DNA of 64,000 nt from Lacibacter sp. H375 (GTDB taxonomy: Bacteria > Bacteroidota > Bacteroidia > Chitinophagales > Chitinophagaceae). The stretch spans positions 2,666,001 to 2,730,000 of the forward strand of contig NZ_JBBKTT010000001.1 in assembly GCF_037892425.1 (NCBI RefSeq), read 5' to 3'. Shown here one piece after another: positions 5,193-19,970 of this stretch. Positions within the stretch are counted from its first letter, which is position 1. The number at the start of each line of letters is the position of its first letter. Both the position numbers and the translations under genes were made by a program. Below the pieces are notes generated by a model. It was not told where the DNA came from. It searched no databases and saw nothing but the letters and a program-made list of their open reading frames with translations.

Positions 5193-5855
5193 TTAATCTT
5201 TCCATAAAAAGGGAAACAAAATCATGCAGAGTGCAAGCACCAGAACATCGAGTCCACCCAACAATAAAACCATCTGAAAAACAGCACCTTCTTTAAAAAT
5301 TTCACCAAAAGCAGACTTAGAAATACGAATTAGCAGCAATAGCTGAGGGATAATAACCGGGAATCCCATGATGACCATGATTGCTGCATTTTGATTAGCC
5401 CTTGAAGCAATGGCGGCCATCAATGTAAATACAAGACTCATACTGATGCCGCCAAGTATAGTCATGCCGATAAACTCAATGGCATGTAAAAAAGGGGCAC
5501 CGAGAAAGAAACTGAATGTTGTGACGCTGAGTAAACTCATCACCAACATCAACAATATATTGTACAAAAGCTTGGCAAGAATAAATTCCTGCGCACTGGT
5601 AAGTGAATAGTAATAGAGCATGCGGCCACGGCTTTCCTGCAAAAAACTTTTAGCCACGGCATTTATGCTGATGAACAACATGTTTACCCAAAACAAAGCG
5701 TTCCATGTGCTTCCATCCGGTTCATTTATAGCTAAGAATAATACATACACTGTACAGGCGATATACAATACAATACCATAAAAAGTGTACTGCTGCCTTA
5801 TTTCAAGCAACAGGTCTTTTTTAAAGAGTGCAATTATTTTTTTTGAGGATGCCAA
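5193..5855 (-). CDS. ccmB: Heme exporter protein CcmB (ABC transporter membrane subunit)
   Basis: 220 residues, about six transmembrane helices, with the N-terminal cytoplasmic FKKDLLLEIRQQY segment typical of CcmB. CcmB forms the membrane part of the CcmAB ATPase complex that recycles CcmE. The ATPase CcmA is not adjacent and must be elsewhere if the complex is complete. It is 74 bases upstream of ccmC on the same strand and 37 bases downstream of the thymidine kinase gene. Confidence 0.88.
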   Translation of the reverse strand: MASSKKIIALFKKDLLLEIRQQYTFYGIVLYIACTVYVLFLAINEPDGSTWNALFWVNMLFISINAVAKSFLQESRGRMLYYYSLTSAQEFILAKLLYNILLMLVMSLLSVTTFSFFLGAPFLHAIEFIGMTILGGISMSLVFTLMAAIASRANQNAAIMVIMGFPVIIPQLLLLIRISKSAFGEIFKEGAVFQMVLLLGGLDVLVLALCMILFPFLWKD

Positions 5856-5892
5856 CGTGAATGGGATAATTTACAAGTTAATATTCCATATT

Positions 5893-6456
5893 TTAAAAAT
5901 GATAACAATGTCTGCATCTCGGCTCATACTTATCTTTTTCACCAAGCACCACTTGTCCGCCTTCACTTGAGGTACGATAAGAGTAGTTGGCAATATTGCC
6001 ACACACCACACAGATCGCATGAAGCTTAGTTATATAATCAGCAACAGCAAGGAGGTTGGGCATTTGGCCAAAAGGTTGCGCCTTATAATCCATATCAAGC
6101 CCGGCAACAATTACCCTTGTTCCACTGAGTGCTAACTTTTCGCACACGTTGGTTATTTCAGGATCGAAGAACTGGGCTTCATCAATACCAACAACTTCTA
6201 CACCCTGTGCCAGCAATAAAATTTTCTGTGAATTATCAATTGGAGTTGATTGAATGGCGTTCTCATCATGCGATACAATTTTTACCTCATCATAACGGAT
6301 ATCAACAGCTGGTTTAAATATCTCCACCTTTAGGTTGGCTATGCGTGCCCGTTTTAAACGGCGGATAAGTTCCTCTGTTTTTCCACTGAACATGGAGCCA
6401 CAGATCACTTCAATCCAGCCTCTCCGGTCGCCTTTTATATTCGGTTCAATAAACAT
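5893..6456 (-). CDS. tdk: Thymidine kinase (type II)
   Basis: 187 residues from the start at base 6456 (MFIEPN); the 25 upstream codons in frame are not family-like. It phosphorylates thymidine to dTMP in nucleotide salvage. It has the P-loop GSMFSGKT (20-27), the catalytic Glu93 region GIDEAQFF, and a zinc-binding lasso domain with Cys149, Cys152, Cys181 and Cys184. Length matches the family. It probably leads the minus-strand tdk-ccmB-ccmC-ccmD group; the gene on the other side is divergent, 73 bases away. Confidence 0.95.
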
Positions 6457-6529
6457 TATCAATATTTTATGCCAAACTGTTTGTAACTTAACGGCAAATT
6501 TCCAATACCGCCAAAAGTAAGCACTATTC

Positions 6530-7339
6530 ATGGAACGAATTGCTTCTCTTATTGAACAATTACAGCAGGCTCTTCAAAGAAACGCCGATGCAACACAAAT
6601 GCTGATACTTACCAATATGCTTCGTGCAGAATTGGAACAGCAATCTCAACAAAAACAAGAAACAACAGGTAGTAACCGTGTAGCGGTTGTGTTACCAGCT
6701 TCAAGAGTATCCTTGCCGGTGCAAGAGGTACCTGAACCTGTTACTGCAACAAGACTTGTTCCGCCATCAGTGGTTAAAGTTGAAGAGAAACCTGTAGAAA
6801 AAATTCTGGAAGTATTACAAATCGACGAAAGCGAAGTAGAAGCTGAACTCGAAGAAATACGTCAAAAAGCGGAGTTTGCAAAAAAAGTAGAAGCACAGCA
6901 ACATCAGCACAAACCTGTTTTGTTGTTTGATGAAGAACCTGAAATTCCTACTCTTGTTCATCAGCCCAACTATGTAGAGCCGAAGAAACCAGCGGCCAGT
7001 TCAAAGGAAGTGAACGAGATGAACAATGGCAAACAATTATCTCTTAACGAACAATTGGGTGAACATAAAACAGAAGTAGCACACAAACTGAACGAGGGCT
7101 CTTCTATTAAAGACCTGAAAAAAGCCATCGGCATCAACGATCGTTTTGTGTTCATCAATGAATTATTTCGTGGCGATGAAGTGATGTACGAACGCAGCAT
7201 TAAAACCATCAACAATTTCTCTATCTATCCCGAAGCACAGTACTGGATGGAGCGTGAATTGAAAATTAAATTGGGCTGGGACAACGATCGTCCTGCAACA
7301 CAGGAGTTTTATGCATTGGTGAAAAGACGTTTTTCCTGA
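6530..7339 (+). CDS. Conserved hypothetical protein with coiled-coil N-terminus
   Basis: 269 residues; I do not recognise a named domain. Residues 1-45 form a predicted amphipathic helix or coiled coil rich in Gln and Leu. Residues 50-170 are low-complexity, rich in Val, Glu, Pro and Lys and probably disordered. The last 90 or so residues (from LNEQLGEHK) look like a compact helical domain with [11 protein letters not shown] and a Trp-rich end ([13 protein letters not shown]). No signal peptide or membrane helix, so it is probably cytoplasmic. Its last 31 bases overlap the convergent waaA gene. A regulatory or scaffolding role is only a guess. Confidence 0.8.
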
Positions 7340-8556
7340 AGCCAATCGATTATAGTTGCGGTTGCTCCCGCATTTTCCTTTACATAGTTTTCTGCAATTG
7401 TTCCTGCCGCTGCAATATCCATCTTAAGCATAACTTCTTTTAGCTCTACAGCATTAATGATTGTAAAACTTGCACCGAGTTTTTTCAAGTCAACACTTTC
7501 TTTAAACTTTTCAAAATTTGGTCCTGTAATAACAGGATTGCCATACACAGCAGCTTCTAAAATGTTATGATGGCCACTTTTGTTGAAACCTCCACCAACA
7601 TAACATATCGAAGCGTATTTGTAAAGACGTGAGAGGTAACCAATGTTGTCTACTATAAGACAATTATGAGTTATGAGGTGTGCGTTATGAGTGGATAGTT
7701 GGGAGAACGTAATTGAATTGTTAAATAATGTTTTTAAACGTTTGATATTTTCTGTCTTGATCTCGTGCGGCGCAATAATCAGCTTATATTTTTCATTGCC
7801 CTTCATCCATTCAGCAAGAATTGTTTCATCTTCTGTCCATGTACTGCCAGCTACCATCACTGGATCAGTCCCACAAAAAGTGTCAACAATTTCTATGGGT
7901 TTCCAATGCTCAGCAGCAGTTATTACACGATCAAAACGTGTATCACCGGCAACAGTTGTTTTATCACTCAGTCCAATTCCATCCAACAATGCTTTTGAAG
8001 CTGCGTTTTGTACAAACAATTGCGAAAACAGTTGCAGCATGTTTCTATTAAAACTTCCCCACCATTGAAAAAATGCCTGCGAAGGACGAAAGATACCCGA
8101 CACCAGAATTGTTTCGATCTTCCTGTTGTTCAGTTCGGCCAGGTAGTAATGCCAGAGCTCGTACTTCACAAAAATGGCGAGCTTCGGTTGAACAATATCA
8201 AGAAAGGCAGCCGCATTTCCTGCTGAATCGAATGGCAGGTACATCACATGATCTGCGCCTAAGTAATTCTTACGCACTTCATAACCCGAGGGAGAGAAGA
8301 AAGTAACCAGGATTTTGGAATTTGGATATTGGGTCTTGATCTGTTCAATAATGGGTCGTCCCTGTTCAAATTCGCCGAGGGAGGCACAATGCATCCACAC
8401 CACAGGTTTTCCCGGCGCTACATTCCATTTGGCGTTTAATTCCTGCTGCCAGTTTTTACGGCCATCAACCCAATTTCTAGCTTTTTGGTTCCAATTTGCG
8501 GCAAAGCCTATGGCTGTTTTGTATGCAACCCGGAATATGTTGTAAAAGAAGATCAT
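7309..8556 (-). CDS. waaA: 3-deoxy-D-manno-octulosonic acid (Kdo) transferase
   Basis: 415 residues from the start at base 8556 (MIFFYNIF); the frame is open 33 codons further upstream, but family members begin with this hydrophobic anchor helix. GT30 enzyme that moves Kdo from CMP-Kdo to lipid A precursor at the inner membrane. Visible: N-terminal anchor; WMHCASLGEFEQGRP, the conserved acceptor-site segment with the catalytic Glu; a C-terminal GT-B fold with YVGGGFNKSGHHNILEAA, which binds CMP-Kdo. With the heptose-7-phosphate kinase at 60 kb it indicates LPS core synthesis. It converges on, and overlaps by 31 bases, the hypothetical gene before it. Confidence 0.94.
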   Translation of the reverse strand: MIFFYNIFRVAYKTAIGFAANWNQKARNWVDGRKNWQQELNAKWNVAPGKPVVWMHCASLGEFEQGRPIIEQIKTQYPNSKILVTFFSPSGYEVRKNYLGADHVMYLPFDSAGNAAAFLDIVQPKLAIFVKYELWHYYLAELNNRKIETILVSGIFRPSQAFFQWWGSFNRNMLQLFSQLFVQNAASKALLDGIGLSDKTTVAGDTRFDRVITAAEHWKPIEIVDTFCGTDPVMVAGSTWTEDETILAEWMKGNEKYKLIIAPHEIKTENIKRLKTLFNNSITFSQLSTHNAHLITHNCLIVDNIGYLSRLYKYASICYVGGGFNKSGHHNILEAAVYGNPVITGPNFEKFKESVDLKKLGASFTIINAVELKEVMLKMDIAAAGTIAENYVKENAGATATIIDWLQEKRLFTNA

Positions 8557-8674
8557 GCGCCACAAATCTAAGAGGAAAGGAATTGGTGAGAAAAACTTAA
8601 CTCTTTCAACCTGTGTTTCAGAGGCTAAACGCCTTTTTTGCCGTACTTTCGCCACCGTTTAAACAAGCTTATTT

Positions 8675-9826
8675 ATGCGGCCTATACAGATGGTTGATCT
8701 TAAGCAGCAATACCTTGCAATTAAGCAGGAAGTAGACACTGCAGTTCTTGATGTTTTAGATAGTTCAGCTTTTATTAATGGTAAACCCGTGCAGGAACTG
8801 GCCAGCGACCTGAGCCAATACCTCGGATCAAAAAATACAATTCCCTGTGCCAACGGAACTGATGCCTTGCAGATTGCGATGATGGCACTTAACCTGCAGC
8901 CAGGTGATGAAGTAATTACTGCTTCGTTCACCTACATTGCCACAGTTGAAGTGGTGGCATTGCTCCGTTTAAAACCTGTGTTTGTGGAAGTTGATCCAAA
9001 AACATTTTGCATTGATCCGGATGCGATCCGCAAAGCCATTACACCAAAAACAAAAGCGATTGTTCCGGTTCACTTGTATGGTCACGCTGCCAATATGGAT
9101 GAGATCATGAAGATTGCTGCAGAACATAACCTGTATGTAATTGAAGATAATGCGCAGGCCATTGGTGCAGATTATATTTATCCCGATGGAACAAAAAAGA
9201 AAACAGGATCAATTGGTACCATTGGTTGCACATCATTCTTCCCATCTAAAAATTTAGGTTGTTATGGCGATGGTGGTGCGATGTTTACCAACGATGATGC
9301 ATTGGCGGAGCAATTGAAGATGGTGGCGAACCACGGACAAAAAGTGCGTTACTATCATGAAGTAGTAGGTTGTAATTCCCGTCTTGATACGGTACAAGCC
9401 GCTGTATTAAAGATCAAACTCAAAAAACTTGACGAATATATTGCTGCACGCCGCAAAGCGGCAGATTATTATGATGCGGCATTTGCAGGCCATAAAAACA
9501 TTACTACACCTTATCGTGCGCCATACAGTAATCATGTGTTTCATCAATACACATTAACACTCGATGGTTTTGACAATGTAGCAGATGTAAGAAATGGATT
9601 GAATGCTTATTTAGCTGAGCAAAAAATTCCATCGATGATCTATTACCCCGTACCGGCGCATCGTCAGCAAATGTTTGCTTCATTTGGTGGAGCAGATTAC
9701 AATTTACCAATAACAGACTGGTTGACGGATCGTGTAATTTCTTTACCGATGCATACGGAACTGGAAGAAGAGCAATTGCAGTTGATCACAAGTAAAGTGT
9801 TAGAATATCTTAATACAAAATCATAA
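8675..9826 (+). CDS. DegT/DnrJ/EryC1/StrS-family PLP aminotransferase
   Basis: 383 residues. The family transaminates keto-sugar nucleotides to amino sugars using PLP. Visible: NGTDAL (60-65) for PLP phosphate binding, EDNAQAIGA (157-165) for the pyridine-ring Asp, and the Schiff-base lysine Lys192 in FFPSKNLGCYGDGG. It heads the plus-strand sugar-nucleotide operon; ugd starts 14 bases downstream. Its substrate could be a keto sugar made from the UDP-HexNAc or dTDP-glucose branches, but nothing in the sequence fixes which. A TACTTTCG sequence at 8644-8651 is a candidate -7 box. Confidence 0.92.
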   Translation: MRPIQMVDLKQQYLAIKQEVDTAVLDVLDSSAFINGKPVQELASDLSQYLGSKNTIPCANGTDALQIAMMALNLQPGDEVITASFTYIATVEVVALLRLKPVFVEVDPKTFCIDPDAIRKAITPKTKAIVPVHLYGHAANMDEIMKIAAEHNLYVIEDNAQAIGADYIYPDGTKKKTGSIGTIGCTSFFPSKNLGCYGDGGAMFTNDDALAEQLKMVANHGQKVRYYHEVVGCNSRLDTVQAAVLKIKLKKLDEYIAARRKAADYYDAAFAGHKNITTPYRAPYSNHVFHQYTLTLDGFDNVADVRNGLNAYLAEQKIPSMIYYPVPAHRQQMFASFGGADYNLPITDWLTDRVISLPMHTELEEEQLQLITSKVLEYLNTKS

Positions 9827-9840
9827 ACAGAAATTAACAG

Positions 9841-11151
9841 ATGAAAATCGCAGTAGTAGGAACAGGTTATGTAGGTCTCGTAACAGGAACGTGTTTTGCC
9901 GAAACAGGCAACCAGGTTACCTGTGTTGATATTGATAAATCAAAAGTTGATAAACTTTCAAACGGGCAGATCACTATTTACGAACCCGGACTTGAAAAAA
10001 TATTTCTCCGTAACCTCAAAGAAGGTCGGTTGCATTTCACCACCAACCTTGCTGAAGGTGTGAAAGATGCAGCGATCATATTTCTTGCGTTGCCAACACC
10101 TCCCGGTGAAGATGGCAGTGCTGATCTGAAATACATTTTAGGTGTGGCCAATGATCTCGGAAAAATTCTTACCGATTATAAAGTGATCGTTGATAAGAGC
10201 ACAGTGCCGGTTGGCACAGCCGATAAAGTGCAGGCTGCAATTGCGAAAAATTTCAAAGGCGAATTTGCTGTGGTGAGTAACCCGGAATTTTTGCGTGAAG
10301 GTGTGGCCGTTGAAGATTTTATGAAACCCGATCGTGTGGTTGTTGGTACAAGTGATGAGCGTGCAAAAAAAGTTATGACTGAGTTGTATGCTCCGTTTGT
10401 ACGTAGTGGTAACCCGGTGATTTTCATGGATGAGAAAAGCGCTGAGCTTACAAAATATGCAGCCAACTCTTTTTTAGCAGTTAAGATTTCATTTATGAAT
10501 GAGATTGCACGCTTATGCGAACGTCTTGGCGCAGATGTTGATATGGTGCGTAAGGGTATAGGTAGTGATGAGCGTATCGGTAAGCGTTTTCTTTTTCCGG
10601 GTATTGGCTATGGCGGAAGTTGTTTCCCGAAAGATGTGCAGGCATTGGTGAAATCATCCAGCGAAGTGGAATATGATTTTGAAATACTGAATGCAGTGAT
10701 GAAGGTGAACGAAGAGCAGAAATTATTCCTCATGCCAAAGATCAATTCATATTTCAATGGTGATTTGAAAGGAAAGCGTTTTGCATTGTGGGGATTAGCC
10801 TTTAAGCCTAACACGGATGACATTCGTGAAGCACCGGCTTTATACATGATTGATGCGTTAACAGAAGCAGGTGCAACCGTACATGCATACGATCCCGAAG
10901 CGATGCCGAATGTAAAGCAAGTAGTGGGCGATAAAATTGATTTCGCACAAAGTCAATACGATGCGTTGGAAAATGCAGATGCATTGATCATTGCAACGGA
11001 GTGGAGCGAATTCCGCACACCTGAATTTGAAAAAATTTCTTCCATGCTGAAGAACAAAGTGATTTTCGACGGACGGAATGTGTACGACAGAGAACAAATG
11101 AAGCAACTTGGTTTCTTCTACGAAAGTGTAGGAAGAGAAGCAGTGAAGTAA
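9841..11151 (+). CDS. ugd: UDP-glucose 6-dehydrogenase
   Basis: 436 residues. It oxidises UDP-glucose twice to UDP-glucuronate with NAD. N-terminal Rossmann motif GTGYVGLVTG (7-16), central helix domain, and the catalytic Cys261 in GGSCFPKDVQAL, the hallmark of the Ugd branch (the second dehydrogenase of this operon has GGHCIGVDPYY instead). Its product is the substrate of the UDP-glucuronate decarboxylase encoded 32 bases downstream, so the pair would make UDP-xylose. Confidence 0.94.
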   Translation: MKIAVVGTGYVGLVTGTCFAETGNQVTCVDIDKSKVDKLSNGQITIYEPGLEKIFLRNLKEGRLHFTTNLAEGVKDAAIIFLALPTPPGEDGSADLKYILGVANDLGKILTDYKVIVDKSTVPVGTADKVQAAIAKNFKGEFAVVSNPEFLREGVAVEDFMKPDRVVVGTSDERAKKVMTELYAPFVRSGNPVIFMDEKSAELTKYAANSFLAVKISFMNEIARLCERLGADVDMVRKGIGSDERIGKRFLFPGIGYGGSCFPKDVQALVKSSSEVEYDFEILNAVMKVNEEQKLFLMPKINSYFNGDLKGKRFALWGLAFKPNTDDIREAPALYMIDALTEAGATVHAYDPEAMPNVKQVVGDKIDFAQSQYDALENADALIIATEWSEFRTPEFEKISSMLKNKVIFDGRNVYDREQMKQLGFFYESVGREAVK

Positions 11152-11183
11152 TTCTAATTAACGAATAGCATAATAACAATATA

Positions 11184-12167
11184 ATGGATTGTAAACGAAT
11201 ATTAATTACAGGTGCTGCAGGTTTTCTCGGTTCGCATTTATGCGACCGTGCAATCAAAGAAGGCTATCATGTAATTGCAATGGATAATCTCATTACCGGT
11301 GATTTGAAAAATATTGAACATCTGTTCAAGCTGGAGCAATTTGAGTTCTATCATCACGATATAACCAAGTTCATTCACATTCCGGGTAAGCTGGATTATA
11401 TCCTGCACTTTGCATCGCCTGCAAGCCCGATCGATTATTTAAAAATCCCGATTCAGACATTGAAGGTTGGTGCGCACGGAACTCATAACTGTTTGGGTTT
11501 GGCAAAAGCAAAAGGTGCACGCATTCTTGTTGCTTCAACTTCTGAAGTATATGGGGATCCGTTGGTGCATCCTCAAACAGAAGAGTATTGGGGAAATGTA
11601 AATCCTGTTGGTCCACGAGGTGTGTACGATGAGGCTAAGCGTTTCATGGAAAGCATTACGATGGCGTATAACCGCTTTCATGGTGTTGAGACAAGGATCA
11701 TTCGCATCTTTAACACATACGGCCCACGTATGAGACTCAATGATGGTCGTGCTTTACCTGCTTTCATTGGTCAGGCTTTGCGTGGGGAAGACTTGACGGT
11801 ATTTGGTGATGGTAGTCAGACACGAAGTTTTTGTTATGTGGATGACCTCGTTGAAGGTATTTATCGTTTGCTTATGAGCGATTATGATATGCCCGTGAAT
11901 ATTGGTAACCCAACAGAAATAACGTTGAAAGAATTTGCAGAAGAAGTGATTAAGTTAACAGGCACATCACAAAAAATTGTTTACAAAGATTTGCCTGTAG
12001 ACGATCCTAAACAACGCAAACCGGATATTACAAAAGCAAAAGCATTGCTTGGCTGGGAGCCAAAAGTAAGTCGTGCGGAAGGATTGAAGATCACTTATGA
12101 GTATTTCAAAAACTTGCCGCAGGAAGAGTGGAGCAAATTGCCGAAAGAGTTTGTGAGCATGAAATGA
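11184..12167 (+). CDS. UDP-glucuronate decarboxylase (UDP-xylose synthase), SDR family
   Basis: 327 residues, extended short-chain dehydrogenase. NAD-binding GAAGFLGSH (10-18), catalytic Tyr148/Lys152 in YDEAKRFME, and the UXS-type segment [10 protein letters not shown]. Converts UDP-glucuronate to UDP-xylose. Position right after ugd supports the substrate. Distinguished from RfbB-like dehydratases by the STSEVYGD and GVYDEAKR motifs. Confidence 0.92.
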
Positions 12168-16235: not shown

Positions 16236-18857
16236 TCAACTCTTGCTTTCCCGATCTTTCAGTTCTTTGATCTTATCGAGCGCTCCGGCCACCACATCGC
16301 ACATAATGGTGTAAAGGGCACCTTGCTTCGGATTAGCGTAAATATATTCCAACGCCTCATTTTCATTCGCAATTTTCATCACCGGAATGGTTTTATTCAC
16401 CTTCCGAATGCCTTCTTCAAGCAAGTCCATGATTTCTTCTGCTGTGCGGCCACGCAGGTTTTTATCGCATCGCATGATGATCTCATCAAAATACTTACCG
16501 CTGATTTCACCAAGTTCACGGATATCTTCATCTCTCCGGTCGCCTGTACCACTAATAACGCCGACTTTATACTTGTAATCGAGTTTGTTTACAAATTCGC
16601 AAAGCAATTGAAGTCCGTGTGGGTTGTGCGCAAAATCGGCGAGGAACGTATAATTTTTAAAGTGAAAGAAATTCAAACGACCGGGCGTTAAGCTTTCGCC
16701 TGGTATAAACGTGAGTAACCCCTGGCGAATATCATCAATGCTGATGTCACGATAAAGATATGTGGCAAGTACTGCTGGTAAACAGTTGGCGATATTATGC
16801 ACCGCTTTGCCTTCGTAGGTAAGCGGAATATCTTTTGCAGGAAGCACTCTTATTTTCCATGTGCCTTTCATGATGCTGATAAAACCATTTTCAAAAACAG
16901 TCGCTAATCCGCCACCAGCACAATGTTCTTTAATGCGTGGATTGTTTTCGTCCATACTGAACAACGCAACATTACACTTCAGATCATTTTTCATTTTATA
17001 AACGAGCTCATCTTCTGCATTAAGAATCGCATAGCCATGCGGAAAAACCGTTTCAGGAACAACTGCTTTTACTTTCGCCATTTGTTCAACAGTGTTGATG
17101 CCGCCAAGGCCAATATGATCTGCAGCAACATTTGTAACAATGGCCACATCACAATTTTGAAATGCCAGACCTGATTTTAAAATACCACCTCTTGCACATT
17201 CCAATACTGCAAAATCAACGGTGGGATCTTTTAATACAAATGTTGATGAGATTGGCCCGGTACAATCGCCCTTCATCATTAAATGATTCTGAATATAAAC
17301 ACCATCACTTGTTGTGTAACCAACTTTCTTACCTGCGCTTTTTGCAATATGTGCAGTTAACCGTGTTGTAGTTGTTTTGCCATTTGTTCCTGTAATGGCG
17401 ATAATGGGAATACGACCAACACTTCCTTTTGGAAACAACATGTCGATCACGGGTTCTGCTACATTACGTGGCAATCCTTCAGCTGGGTCAATATGCATAC
17501 GGAAACCCGGTGCTGCATTTACTTCGAGAATGGCTCCTCCGTTTTCACTCACAGGAGTACGTAAGTCTGTTGCCATAATATCAATACCGCAAATATCAAG
17601 ACCAATAATTTTGCTGATGCGTTCGCACATGAACACATTTGCAGGATGTACCTCATCGGTTACATCTGTTGATGTACCACCTGTTGAAAGATTTGCTGTT
17701 GTTTTTAATAAAACCAATTCGCCTTTTGGCGGAACTGTCTCTAATGTATATCCTTTCTCTTCCAGCATTTTCATAGTGCTGCCATCAACAGTAATTTGTG
17801 TCAATACTTTTTCATGACCATAGCCACGACGGGGATCTTTATTGGTTTCATCGATCAGCCATTGAATGTTATGTTCACCATCTCCAATTACACTTGCAGG
17901 CGTGCGCAACGCAGCACAAATAAATTTATGGTTGATGACGAGTATGCGAAAATCAAAACCTGTAATAAAGCGTTCAACAATTACACTACGGCTATATGCT
18001 TTCGCTGCTTCAAATGCTTTTAATGCCTGTTCTTTATTGGTAATGTTGGTGGTATTCCCTTTTCCGTGATTGCCGTCAATTGGTTTGATCACTAAGGGGT
18101 ATCCGAATTTTTCAATGGCTTCATCTAAACCAACTTCAGTGCGAATCACCGTTCCTCTAGGTACAGGAATTTCAGCAGCTTCGAGCAATAGTTTTGTTTC
18201 TTCTTTATCGCATGCAATATCTACTGCAATATTTGATGTGGTTGATGCAATAGTTGCACGAATGCGTTTTTGATGAACACCATAACCCAACTGCACCAAA
18301 CTTTGTTTATTCAATCGTATGTAAGGAATGTTTCGTTTGGCTGCTTCATCAACAATACAGCCGGTTGAAGGGCCTAGTCTTGTATCTTCTCGTATTTCTC
18401 TCAGCTTTTGAATATCTTCTTCCAGGTTATATTCTTCTCCTGCAACCAACGCTTCAGCAATACGCACAGCAGCTTTGGCTGCATATACACCCGCATCTTC
18501 TTCGAGATAAGTAAACACTACATAATACACACCTTCTTTTTCATTGGCGCCACGGGTTCTTCCGAATCCTGTATCCATACCTGCCAATGTTTGCAGTTCT
18601 AATGCTACATGTTCTATCACATGGCCCATCCATGTGCCTTCATCAACCCGTTGAAAAAATCCACCTGGTTTGCCCACACTGCAACGATGTCCGTAAAGGC
18701 TGGGAAATAATTTTTCCAATCGTTCACGGAAACCTGGAATGTGGTTAGTGGGGCGTTGTTCAAGTTCTTCGAGGTCGAGTTTCATTTGTATGAGTTTGGT
18801 CCGGCGCACACTCCAATAGTTTGGACCACGAAGAATTTTAATTTCAAGAACTTTCAT
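16236..18857 (-). CDS. cphA: Cyanophycin synthetase
   Basis: 873 residues, the normal CphA length. It builds cyanophycin, an Asp backbone with Arg side groups, without a ribosome, using ATP. Visible: N-terminal domain (about 1-160) opening with the family-typical KILRGPNYWS; an ATP-grasp domain (about 215-475; PLVIKPIDGNHGKG, LEVNAAPGF); and a Mur-ligase-like domain (from about 485) with P-loop GTNGKTTTT (490-498) and a C-terminal FAHNPHG motif. All three parts are intact. The cyanophycinase gene lies divergently 216 bases away, and an isoaspartyl peptidase that could finish degradation is encoded at 61 kb. A MurC/Mpl-type ligase is excluded by the fused ATP-grasp domain. Confidence 0.96.
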   Translation of the reverse strand: MKVLEIKILRGPNYWSVRRTKLIQMKLDLEELEQRPTNHIPGFRERLEKLFPSLYGHRCSVGKPGGFFQRVDEGTWMGHVIEHVALELQTLAGMDTGFGRTRGANEKEGVYYVVFTYLEEDAGVYAAKAAVRIAEALVAGEEYNLEEDIQKLREIREDTRLGPSTGCIVDEAAKRNIPYIRLNKQSLVQLGYGVHQKRIRATIASTTSNIAVDIACDKEETKLLLEAAEIPVPRGTVIRTEVGLDEAIEKFGYPLVIKPIDGNHGKGNTTNITNKEQALKAFEAAKAYSRSVIVERFITGFDFRILVINHKFICAALRTPASVIGDGEHNIQWLIDETNKDPRRGYGHEKVLTQITVDGSTMKMLEEKGYTLETVPPKGELVLLKTTANLSTGGTSTDVTDEVHPANVFMCERISKIIGLDICGIDIMATDLRTPVSENGGAILEVNAAPGFRMHIDPAEGLPRNVAEPVIDMLFPKGSVGRIPIIAITGTNGKTTTTRLTAHIAKSAGKKVGYTTSDGVYIQNHLMMKGDCTGPISSTFVLKDPTVDFAVLECARGGILKSGLAFQNCDVAIVTNVAADHIGLGGINTVEQMAKVKAVVPETVFPHGYAILNAEDELVYKMKNDLKCNVALFSMDENNPRIKEHCAGGGLATVFENGFISIMKGTWKIRVLPAKDIPLTYEGKAVHNIANCLPAVLATYLYRDISIDDIRQGLLTFIPGESLTPGRLNFFHFKNYTFLADFAHNPHGLQLLCEFVNKLDYKYKVGVISGTGDRRDEDIRELGEISGKYFDEIIMRCDKNLRGRTAEEIMDLLEEGIRKVNKTIPVMKIANENEALEYIYANPKQGALYTIMCDVVAGALDKIKELKDRESKS

Positions 18858-18894
18858 GTGTTATTTTTTATTTGATTTTGGCCACATGCTATTC

Positions 18895-18945
18895 GCCATA
18901 AAATTTTCATCGGTGCGATGTGAGTTACCTCGAAAATTTTATGGC
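18895..18945. repeat. Perfect 14-bp inverted repeat between cphA and cphB
   Basis: GCCATAAAATTTTC (18895-18908) is exactly repeated in inverse as GAAAATTTTATGGC (18932-18945). The 23-base spacer contains a second small palindrome, ATCG-GTG-CGAT (18909-18919). There is no T run after either arm, so it does not look like a simple terminator. It lies 38-88 bases upstream of the cphA start and could be an operator or a leader RNA structure. Confidence 0.7.
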
Positions 18946-19042
18946 TCATTTCATAACCGTCGATTGATGTTGTTTCCGAATATATCAAAATTTATCCGAT
19001 GCTGTTGATAAAAGCAAGGCAACACAGGAAATATTTTACCCT

Positions 19043-19050
19043 TAATTTTG
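19043..19050 (+). promoter_or_regulatory. Candidate -7 box for cyanophycinase
   Basis: TAATTTTG matches the Bacteroidota TAnnTTTG box, 23 bases before the chosen TTG start. No convincing TTTG -33 element sits 19-20 bases upstream, so this is tentative. Confidence 0.45.
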
Positions 19051-19073
19051 TTTGGAACTAAAAATCACAATCA

Positions 19074-19970
19074 TTGCAGTATCCAAAAGGAAAGCTGATC
19101 GCTATCGGCGGTGCAGAAGATAAAGGGACCGATCTTGAAGCGGGAGAAATAAACCGCAATAATCTTAACTTTTTTGAGCTGGGTATTCTCAGGCGGGTGG
19201 TGGAAGAAGCCGGTGGTATTGATGCCCGTATTGAAGTAATAACAACTGCTTCAACTATTCCATACGAAGTAGGGGATAATTACATGAATGCATTTGGAAA
19301 GATCGGCTGCACCAATATTGGCGTGCTGCATATCCGCAACAGGCAGGATACAGCTAATTCTGAATATCTTGAACGTATCAAAATCTGCAATGCAGTGATG
19401 TTCTCTGGTGGTAATCAAATGCGTTTAAGCGTAACCGATGGAGGAACAGAGTTTTTAGCCATTTTGAAAAAGCGTTACCAGGAGGAAGCCGGTTTTGTGA
19501 TTGCTGGCACGTCTGCAGGTGCAATGGCTATGAGCAAAACAATGATCTATGAAGGAAATGCTGCACGTGCTTATTTGAAAGGCGAAGTAAAAATGACTGC
19601 AGGCTTAGGGTTTATTGATAATGTTATTATTGATAGCCATTTTGAAAAGCGTGGGCGTTTTGTTCGGTTAACGCAAGCTGTTGCAACAAACCCTTCCTGC
19701 ATTGGTATTGGTTTGGGTGAAGATACTGGCATGCTCATCACCGAAGGAAATAAAATGGAAGCAATTGGAAGTGGTTTGGTGATCATCATTGATGGGCATG
19801 ACATGATGCATTCCAATATTGCTGACATTCCCGATGGTAATCCAATCAGTATCGAAAATCTTAGAGTACATTTCTGTGAAAAAGGAAATGGCTACATGGT
19901 AAAAGAGCGTCAGTTTTTAATGGAGGCAAAAGATGGTGCACTCATCAAAAAGCAAGTACACGTAGAATAA
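19074..19970 (+). CDS. cphB: Cyanophycinase
   Basis: 298 residues, S51 peptidase family. It cleaves cyanophycin to beta-Asp-Arg dipeptides. The nucleophile Ser147 sits in the AGTSAGAMAMS elbow; GGAEDK near the N-terminus and SGGNQMRL (111-118) are typical of bacterial intracellular CphB. There is no signal peptide, so it acts in the cytoplasm. The start is a TTG: an in-frame TAA lies only 15 bases upstream and no ATG occurs before the conserved IAIGGAED. It is divergent from cphA, so making and breaking of the polymer are controlled separately. Confidence 0.95.
   Translation: MQYPKGKLIAIGGAEDKGTDLEAGEINRNNLNFFELGILRRVVEEAGGIDARIEVITTASTIPYEVGDNYMNAFGKIGCTNIGVLHIRNRQDTANSEYLERIKICNAVMFSGGNQMRLSVTDGGTEFLAILKKRYQEEAGFVIAGTSAGAMAMSKTMIYEGNAARAYLKGEVKMTAGLGFIDNVIIDSHFEKRGRFVRLTQAVATNPSCIGIGLGEDTGMLITEGNKMEAIGSGLVIIIDGHDMMHSNIADIPDGNPISIENLRVHFCEKGNGYMVKERQFLMEAKDGALIKKQVHVE

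Follow-up and report, generated by a model that had tools for sequence, protein, structure and literature searches.

The 64,000-nucleotide stretch of Lacibacter sp. H375 DNA analyzed here (NCBI RefSeq assembly GCF_037892425.1, contig NZ_JBBKTT010000001.1, positions 2,666,001 to 2,730,000 of the forward strand; hereafter the window) carries a cyanophycin synthetase gene, cphA, head to head with a cyanophycinase gene, cphB. This raises the question of whether a member of the Bacteroidota can both make cyanophycin and break it down completely, and which enzyme would then perform the last step. We consider it likely that all enzymes of an intracellular cyanophycin cycle are encoded in this genome, with a peptidase resembling IaaA as the last enzyme (Table 1). 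The cycle is read from protein families, intact catalytic residues and gene co-occurrence, and from these we infer the polymer, the granules, their regulation and the in vivo substrate of the third enzyme.

The cphA-cphB pair is already a recognised trait of the Bacteroidota. It is not novel, because a 2023 survey counted 86 complete Bacteroidota genomes with a type-1 cyanophycin synthetase (CphA1), 100% of them with a cyanophycinase and with the pair clustered (PMC10206079; all published sources are cited here for part of their text). A cphA, a cphB and an isoaspartyl aminopeptidase were also reported for a Dyadobacter (PMC11573002), and co-expression of cphA for a Flavobacterium (PMC9723704). 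In view of these three sources, the remark of the sequence-only reading of this locus that cyanophycin is little described in Bacteroidota is not supported as a sign of novelty. Experimental work on cyanophycin in Bacteroidota was not pointed to in the open-licence literature searched, and none of five terms for Bacteroidota was found in the text of PMC10687191. The survey found IadA or IaaA in 22.1% of the 86 genomes and, in the part consulted, stated that the isoaspartyl dipeptidase was still undiscovered both in Firmicutes and in Bacteroidota (PMC10206079). What is new here is a set of IaaA-like genes that are good candidates for the missing Bacteroidota dipeptidase; such candidates were not met in the open-licence literature searched. 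The value of the analysis lies in the third step: in most Bacteroidota able to synthesise and cleave cyanophycin the survey found no dipeptidase, and testable candidates are offered here. If these are right, the cycle would be complete in many Bacteroidota.

The product of cphA is best taken as a type-1 synthetase that is probably primer-independent. It scored 1248.2 bits against TIGR02068 (cut-off 850) over positions 1-861 of the 862 in the profile. The best match among solved proteins was 7lg5 (959 bits, residues 1-864), followed by 7wac (925 bits) and the CphA1 structures 7lgm and 7lgn (616 and 599 bits). We take 7lg5 to be the Synechocystis enzyme and 7wac to be the Trichodesmium enzyme. 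PMC9427784 partly bears out this assignment. The catalytic residues were placed via alignment with solved relatives. In the N domain, the metal-site motif Cx19HxxEH, which cuts the polymer to yield primers (PMC9262961), reads C59-x19-H79-VI-E82-H83; it was kept in all 86 CphA proteins compared, which came from the window, 80 named loci and five additional stretches. The ATP-grasp (G) domain has K218, K258, H264, R304, R318, N389, S391, D426, and E445, and the Mur-ligase (M) domain has an intact P-loop, GTNGKTTTTRL, and D580/H581. Known CphA1 enzymes carry H267, K220, K261, R309, R323, N394, S396, D431, E450, the P-loop, and D585/H586 as catalytic G- and M-domain residues. The active-site residues of the window protein are those examined by mutation or structure in PMC9262961 and PMC9427784. 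Since the catalytic residues of all three domains are present, the protein conforms to CphA1 by sequence. It is the single CphA above the cut-off in the genome (5.08-Mb assembly, three contigs, 100% complete). Its closest named relatives were from a Ferruginibacter metagenome-assembled genome (89%) and then from other Bacteroidota, many of them titled Chitinophagaceae.

One residue counts against an enzyme of the standard kind. Glu215 of Trichodesmium CphA, a G-domain contact to the primer Arg that is also required there (PMC9427784), corresponds to Asp213 in the window, a conservative change. The motif was readable in 58 of the 86 CphA proteins, and 47 of these have Asp there. The change lends some weight to the idea that the product of CphA resembles cyanophycin but has different side chains (e.g., part Lys), or that the enzyme mainly re-polymerises scavenged dipeptides in the manner of CphA2. 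The N-domain motif that CphA2 is described as lacking (PMC9262961) is nevertheless intact, as are both ligase sites, and the TIGR02068 cut-off is exceeded by about 400 bits, so we regard such an activity as very improbable.

CphB scored 224.5 bits against TIGR02069 (cut-off 126.6), which identifies it by sequence as a cyanophycinase. It matched the solved cyanophycinase 7uqv at 1.1e-52 and 3en0 at 3e-39, carries the S51 catalytic serine motif GTSAGA at position 145, and is the only S51 peptidase of the genome. The gene starts with TTG, and ATG is found at the equivalent place in several relatives. The sequence-only reading had the coordinates, strands and head-to-head order of the two genes exactly right, with both frames unbroken. 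Its statement that all catalytic motifs are present agrees with our direct check of CphA, CphB and the peptidase, and its proposal that the pair makes and degrades cyanophycin is well supported by family, motifs and co-occurrence. What it presented as known, a full cycle of three activities, and as inferred, storage in granules, is interpretation.

We scanned the divergent region between cphA and cphB for TAnnTTTG, the Bacteroidota-type -7 box consensus. In 45 relatives whose divergent region is simple, the box faced cphB in 40 and cphA in 2. In 36 of the 41 regions carrying the box (window included) it was located 26-43 nt ahead of the start of the CphB match. We therefore regard it as very likely that cphB is transcribed from a promoter of its own. 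A promoter for cphA was not found in the scan of the 216-bp region. The divergent arrangement itself is common: in 80 cphA loci of named genomes, cphB was divergent on the 5' side in 61 and on the 3' side in 2. The remaining 17 had no cphB within the available stretch, which in 3 of them left less than 1.5 kb of room.

The product of the window iaaA-like gene belongs to the Asparaginase_2 family of N-terminal nucleophile (Ntn) hydrolases (PF01112, 356.5 bits, cut-off 27). The gene is intact and encodes the autocatalytic Thr motif FGTVGAVA. Its closest solved protein was 2zak (2.4e-90, aligned over residues 5-297), which we take to be E. coli IaaA. A synthetase, a cyanophycinase and a dipeptidase candidate are thus all encoded in the genome, as expected of a genome that stores cyanophycin. 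That the peptidase closes the cycle was at first a guess from its family name; what now gives it independent support is the way it tracks cphA and groups in trees. On these grounds the product is the probable beta-Asp-Arg dipeptidase of the cycle.

The distribution of the three genes was determined in 147 genomes of the family, each at least 90% complete. A cphA was found in 62 genomes, 61 of them above the cut-off; the 62 include G143, where the CphA match covers positions 1-442 only and falls under the cut-off. Cyanophycinase of the CphB kind (TIGR02069, E <= 2e-55) was present in 60 of the 62 cphA-positive and 2 of the 85 cphA-negative genomes, and relaxing the limit to E <= 1e-20, where S51 peptidases of other kinds are also matched, gave 76 of 147. 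Asparaginase_2 genes treated as one class were uninformative, as 144 of the 147 genomes carry one. Only the cytoplasmic kind, which we delimited by hand at a score break at E of about 1e-102, gave a signal. Cytoplasmic IaaA was found in 86 genomes, namely in 58/62 with cphA versus 28/85 without (Fisher p 1e-14). Two further cphA-positive genomes, G030 and G113, lack it and have a short IaaA-like gene adjoining cphB, and an IaaA-like gene accompanied cphA in 60 of 62 genomes (58 normal form, 2 short form). IadA, the alternative known dipeptidase, was discarded for this role, since it occurred in only 1 of the 147 genomes, a cphA-negative one, and in none of the 62.

Kinship was controlled for with independent pairs on an rpoB tree, given as means of 200 pairings. 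The tree contained 109 of the 147 genomes, after 4 genomes without an rpoB match and 34 second genus members with the same cphA/IaaA state had been dropped, and cphA needs 27 changes on it. In 20 independent pairs, cytoplasmic IaaA changed the same way as cphA in 13.4 and the opposite way in 0.0, and did not differ in 6.6 (median p 2.4e-4). The positive control, cphB, gave 18.4 versus 0.0. Presumed-secreted paralogues, assigned by lower score and longer frame, served as the negative control and gave 17/62 versus 25/85 (p 0.85), with pairs of 2.9 versus 3.3. Two genomes were borderline: G131 (7e-102) was counted in by tree and place, and G006 (4e-102, 360-codon frame) was counted out. Shifting them changed the counts to 57-58/62 versus 28-29/85 and the pairs to 12.3-13.4 versus 0.0. 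Since the co-occurrence survives removal of kinship and the secreted paralogues show nothing, iaaA is no chance neighbour. If this is right, the patchy occurrence of cphA within one family (62/147) would lend itself to studying under which conditions storing nitrogen is worthwhile.

A different view is that CphA and CphB act as described and that the window IaaA is merely a housekeeping isoaspartyl peptidase, with another enzyme splitting beta-Asp-Arg. Several observations weigh in this direction and against IaaA as the last enzyme of the cycle. The window protein falls below the cut-off of PRK10226, the NCBI beta-aspartyl-peptidase model (344 versus 567 bits), for which reason we file the gene as IaaA-like and not as an E. 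coli-type equivalog. The IaaA and IadA enzymes assayed in the survey were, in the part consulted, promiscuous (PMC10206079). The gene is located outside the cph locus, 42 kb from cphA and about 8 kb after rpoB, in a housekeeping region. In two cphA-positive genomes, G037 and G086 (400 and 900 contigs), a cytoplasmic IaaA was not found. Window-type IaaA is also retained in the 28 of 85 cphA-negative genomes, so it has another role as well.

The phylogeny of IaaA bears on both views. In a tree of 117 rows (quick method, with Shimodaira-Hasegawa-like approximate likelihood ratio test support; 6 presumed-secreted rows included; root not inferred), the window protein fell into a clade of 81 rows with support 100, here termed clade H, of which 53 came from cphA-positive and 28 from cphA-negative genomes. 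Among the 53, only 16 share a contig with cphA and none of these adjoins it; the distance is 34-53 kb in 13 of them and between 142 kb and 1.4 Mb in the other 3 (all cphA-iaaA distances are linear and within a contig). The remaining cytoplasmic proteins, 30 rows that come without exception from cphA-positive genomes, formed a grade, here grade C; 12 of these came via the cphA search and are cphA-positive by construction, and the rows from the family sample were 18 of 18. Eight of these 18 were within 9 kb of cphA, one (G107) adjoined cphB on another contig, four shared a contig with cphA at distances from 33 kb to 3 Mb, and the last five did not share its contig. Clade H was kept in 13 of the 18 genomes with a grade-C IaaA, as might be expected of a housekeeping enzyme. 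Clade H nevertheless tracks cphA when the grade-C genomes are removed (40/44 versus 28/85; independent pairs 11.4 versus 0.0). In a 59-row phylum tree it groups with the cphA-near IaaAs of other families (support 90), within a clade that also holds grade C (support 95). Together with the lack of IadA in cphA-positive genomes of the family, this makes a purely housekeeping IaaA unlikely. Across the 80 cphA loci, an IaaA-like gene was in the same locus in 12, and each of these 12 belongs to the 16 loci furthest from the window (about 66% identity). We infer that iaaA was once linked to cphA-cphB and shifted toward the rpoB region in part of the family; the direction of this move is only a proposal, because the roots of the trees were not inferred.

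We extended the analysis to 296 genomes of the phylum, 36 of which had a CphA match, 33 above the cut-off. Of the ten genomes from outside the family with the highest-ranking IaaA matches, eight (among them the top six) had IaaA at a distance of 1.0-6.6 kb from cphA, and two, G270 and G373, had no cphA. Most cphA-positive genomes of other families had no window-like, normal-length IaaA beside cphA. Reading around cphB, which spanned about 1.5 kb on each side, gave instead an Asparaginase_2 protein of about 280 aa that adjoins cphB in 15 genomes (24 searched around cphB, 21 with a match); G030 is a sixteenth. Identity between this short form and the window IaaA was about 32-36%. One member matched 2zak at 2.5e-38, and the five members scored against PRK10226 gave 119-145 of 567 bits and passed no curated NCBI cut-off. 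The short form made up one clade of 21 rows with support 100 (G030 counted twice). Six rows missed at least one of four search patterns, and by eye the Thr, TSTGG, R-x-x-D, and TGxGE were kept. At E <= 1e-100 the short form was found in 16/33 cphA-positive versus 3/263 other genomes (p 9e-15), and one of these three had a distant cyanophycinase-like match nearby. Two more weak matches (39-41% identity) were outside the short clade.

Altogether 24 of the 33 cphA-positive genomes had an IaaA-like gene near cphA or cphB, 16 of the short and 8 of the normal-length form. Among the other nine, G305 has an IaaA-like gene beside cphB away from cphA, G381, a distant genome, has IadA adjoining cphB (398 bits, cut-off 331), and three, which belong to the window's own family and include the window genome, have an unlinked clade H. 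In G188, G215, G238, and G370 no IaaA-like gene was found near cphA or cphB within about 1.5 kb on each side. We lean towards the view that Bacteroidota finish cyanophycin breakdown by two dedicated IaaA-type Ntn hydrolases, a normal-length form and a short, divergent, cyanophycin-dipeptide-specific form whose gene adjoins cphB in other families. On balance, the normal-length form would then be placed beside cphA-cphB in several lineages, and in much of the window's family it would have shifted to the neighbourhood of rpoB. If true, this would close the gap left by the 2023 survey.

In the cycle that we propose for the window genome, CphA1 would make its own primers via the N-domain metal site, with the ATP-grasp domain adding Asp onto the backbone and the Mur-ligase domain adding Arg onto the side chain. 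CphB, divergently transcribed from its own short-leader promoter, would cut the backbone into beta-Asp-Arg dipeptides, and the IaaA-like Ntn hydrolase would split these into Asp and Arg besides doing general isoaspartyl-peptide work. It is conceivable that the cph locus serves to scavenge the cyanophycin of other bacteria rather than to store it: loci for the use of cyanophycin are known from Bacteroidota (cited in PMC10206079), and asparaginase-2 and S51 genes are side by side in cphA-negative genomes of the family, e.g., G021, G028, G087, and G109. For the window we consider this highly improbable, as an intact synthetase is present and no evident signal peptide was seen at the start of CphB or IaaA when the sequences were read by eye. 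Asparaginase-2 genes with an S51 gene on each side were observed in G021, G109, G094, and G119, two of which are without cphA; these may be cyanophycin-scavenging loci.

The sequence-only reading had suggested a phylogeny of CphA to see whether the gene was acquired. Recent acquisition turned out not to be the main picture, as CphA and rpoB distances agree and the window CphA groups with that of its genus mate. For 45 family genomes (45 of the 46 cphA-positive rows of the rpoB set; G051, with a partial rpoB, was omitted) the Spearman correlation between the tree distances was 0.52, and it rose to 0.80 when the odd-looking G015, G095, G131, and G030 were left out, with 0 of 2000 permutations as high in either case. 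Within the family cphA looks mostly vertical, with many losses and few foreign copies, and the copies of the four genomes named look foreign or replaced. At L199 (G131; 5842-11464) a divergent cphA is flanked by two cphB genes, one on either side, and is accompanied by an IaaA-like gene. This cassette looks recently gained, because the rpoB of G131 is nearly the same as that of the cphA-less G065.

More distant CphA proteins were also encountered. Nineteen plasmid copies (at least 80% of the query covered) had 40.8-44.6% identity to the window CphA. The cphA of a Chryseobacterium plasmid (NZ_CP041688.1, 25199-27682) was 44.6% identical, about as far from the window's as the Deinococcus and Rhizobium plasmid copies. 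G269, G320, and G368 have CphA-like proteins under the cut-off that matched the model only from position 114-196 onward, and no cyanophycinase match was found in them at E <= 1e-20.

Two other genes recur near cphA in relatives and are absent from the window cph locus. A class-V aminotransferase-like gene with a Tat-like start was found at 19 loci, mostly between cphA and cphB (e.g., L022 8283-9578, minus strand, and 18 more), and a gene for an APC amino acid permease at 12 loci (L037 6226-7560, minus strand, and 11 more). Both were rejected as the dipeptidase, neither being a peptidase by Pfam. The APC-type permease gene upstream of iaaA in the window encodes a different permease; as some relatives have an APC permease near cphA, it is a possible but unproven partner of iaaA.

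Table 1. Positions of the genes and sites discussed; coordinates are those of the window unless a locus (L) is named.
Feature	Position	Strand	Remarks
cphA, type-1 cyanophycin synthetase (CphA1), 873 aa	16236-18857	minus	N, ATP-grasp (G) and Mur-ligase (M) domains
cphA-cphB divergent intergenic region, 216 bp	18858-19073		From gene coordinates; scanned for TAnnTTTG
TAATTTTG, probable -7 box of cphB promoter	19043-19050	plus	31 nt before start codon
cphB, cyanophycinase, peptidase family S51, 298 aa, TTG start	19074-19970	plus	TIGR02069, solved relatives, serine motif
APC-type amino acid permease, two genes upstream of iaaA	58567-59982	plus	PF13520, 192.6 bits
iaaA-like, presumed cytoplasmic isoaspartyl peptidase, Asparaginase_2 (Ntn hydrolase) family, 309 aa	60987-61916	plus	PF01112, 2zak
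Short IaaA-like example, L412	2501-3340	plus	Adjoins cphB; the three examples come from several cphA-positive Bacteroidota families
Short IaaA-like example, L408	567-1406	minus	As above
Short IaaA-like example, L418	2458-3297	plus	As above

Compared to known systems, the window CphA is like the cyanobacterial CphA1 enzymes (7lg5 and 7wac) in its full length, three domains, and catalytic and N-domain primer residues, and differs from them in having Asp213 for Glu215 and in its Bacteroidota host. CphB is, like 7uqv and 3en0, an S51 serine hydrolase with its catalytic motif, encoded head to head with cphA; unlike these, its gene uses a TTG start. The window IaaA shares with E. coli IaaA (2zak) the Ntn hydrolase family and the self-cleavage Thr motif, but is under the PRK10226 cut-off and tracks cphA in its family, whereas E. 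coli is given as being without cyanophycin genes in the part of the survey consulted (PMC10206079). The Bacteroidota of that survey have the same clustered cphA1-cyanophycinase pair as the window. Unlike the 22.1% reported there for IadA or IaaA, an IaaA-like gene was found here with cphA in 60 of 62 genomes of the family, and near cphA or cphB in 24 of 33 genomes of the phylum.

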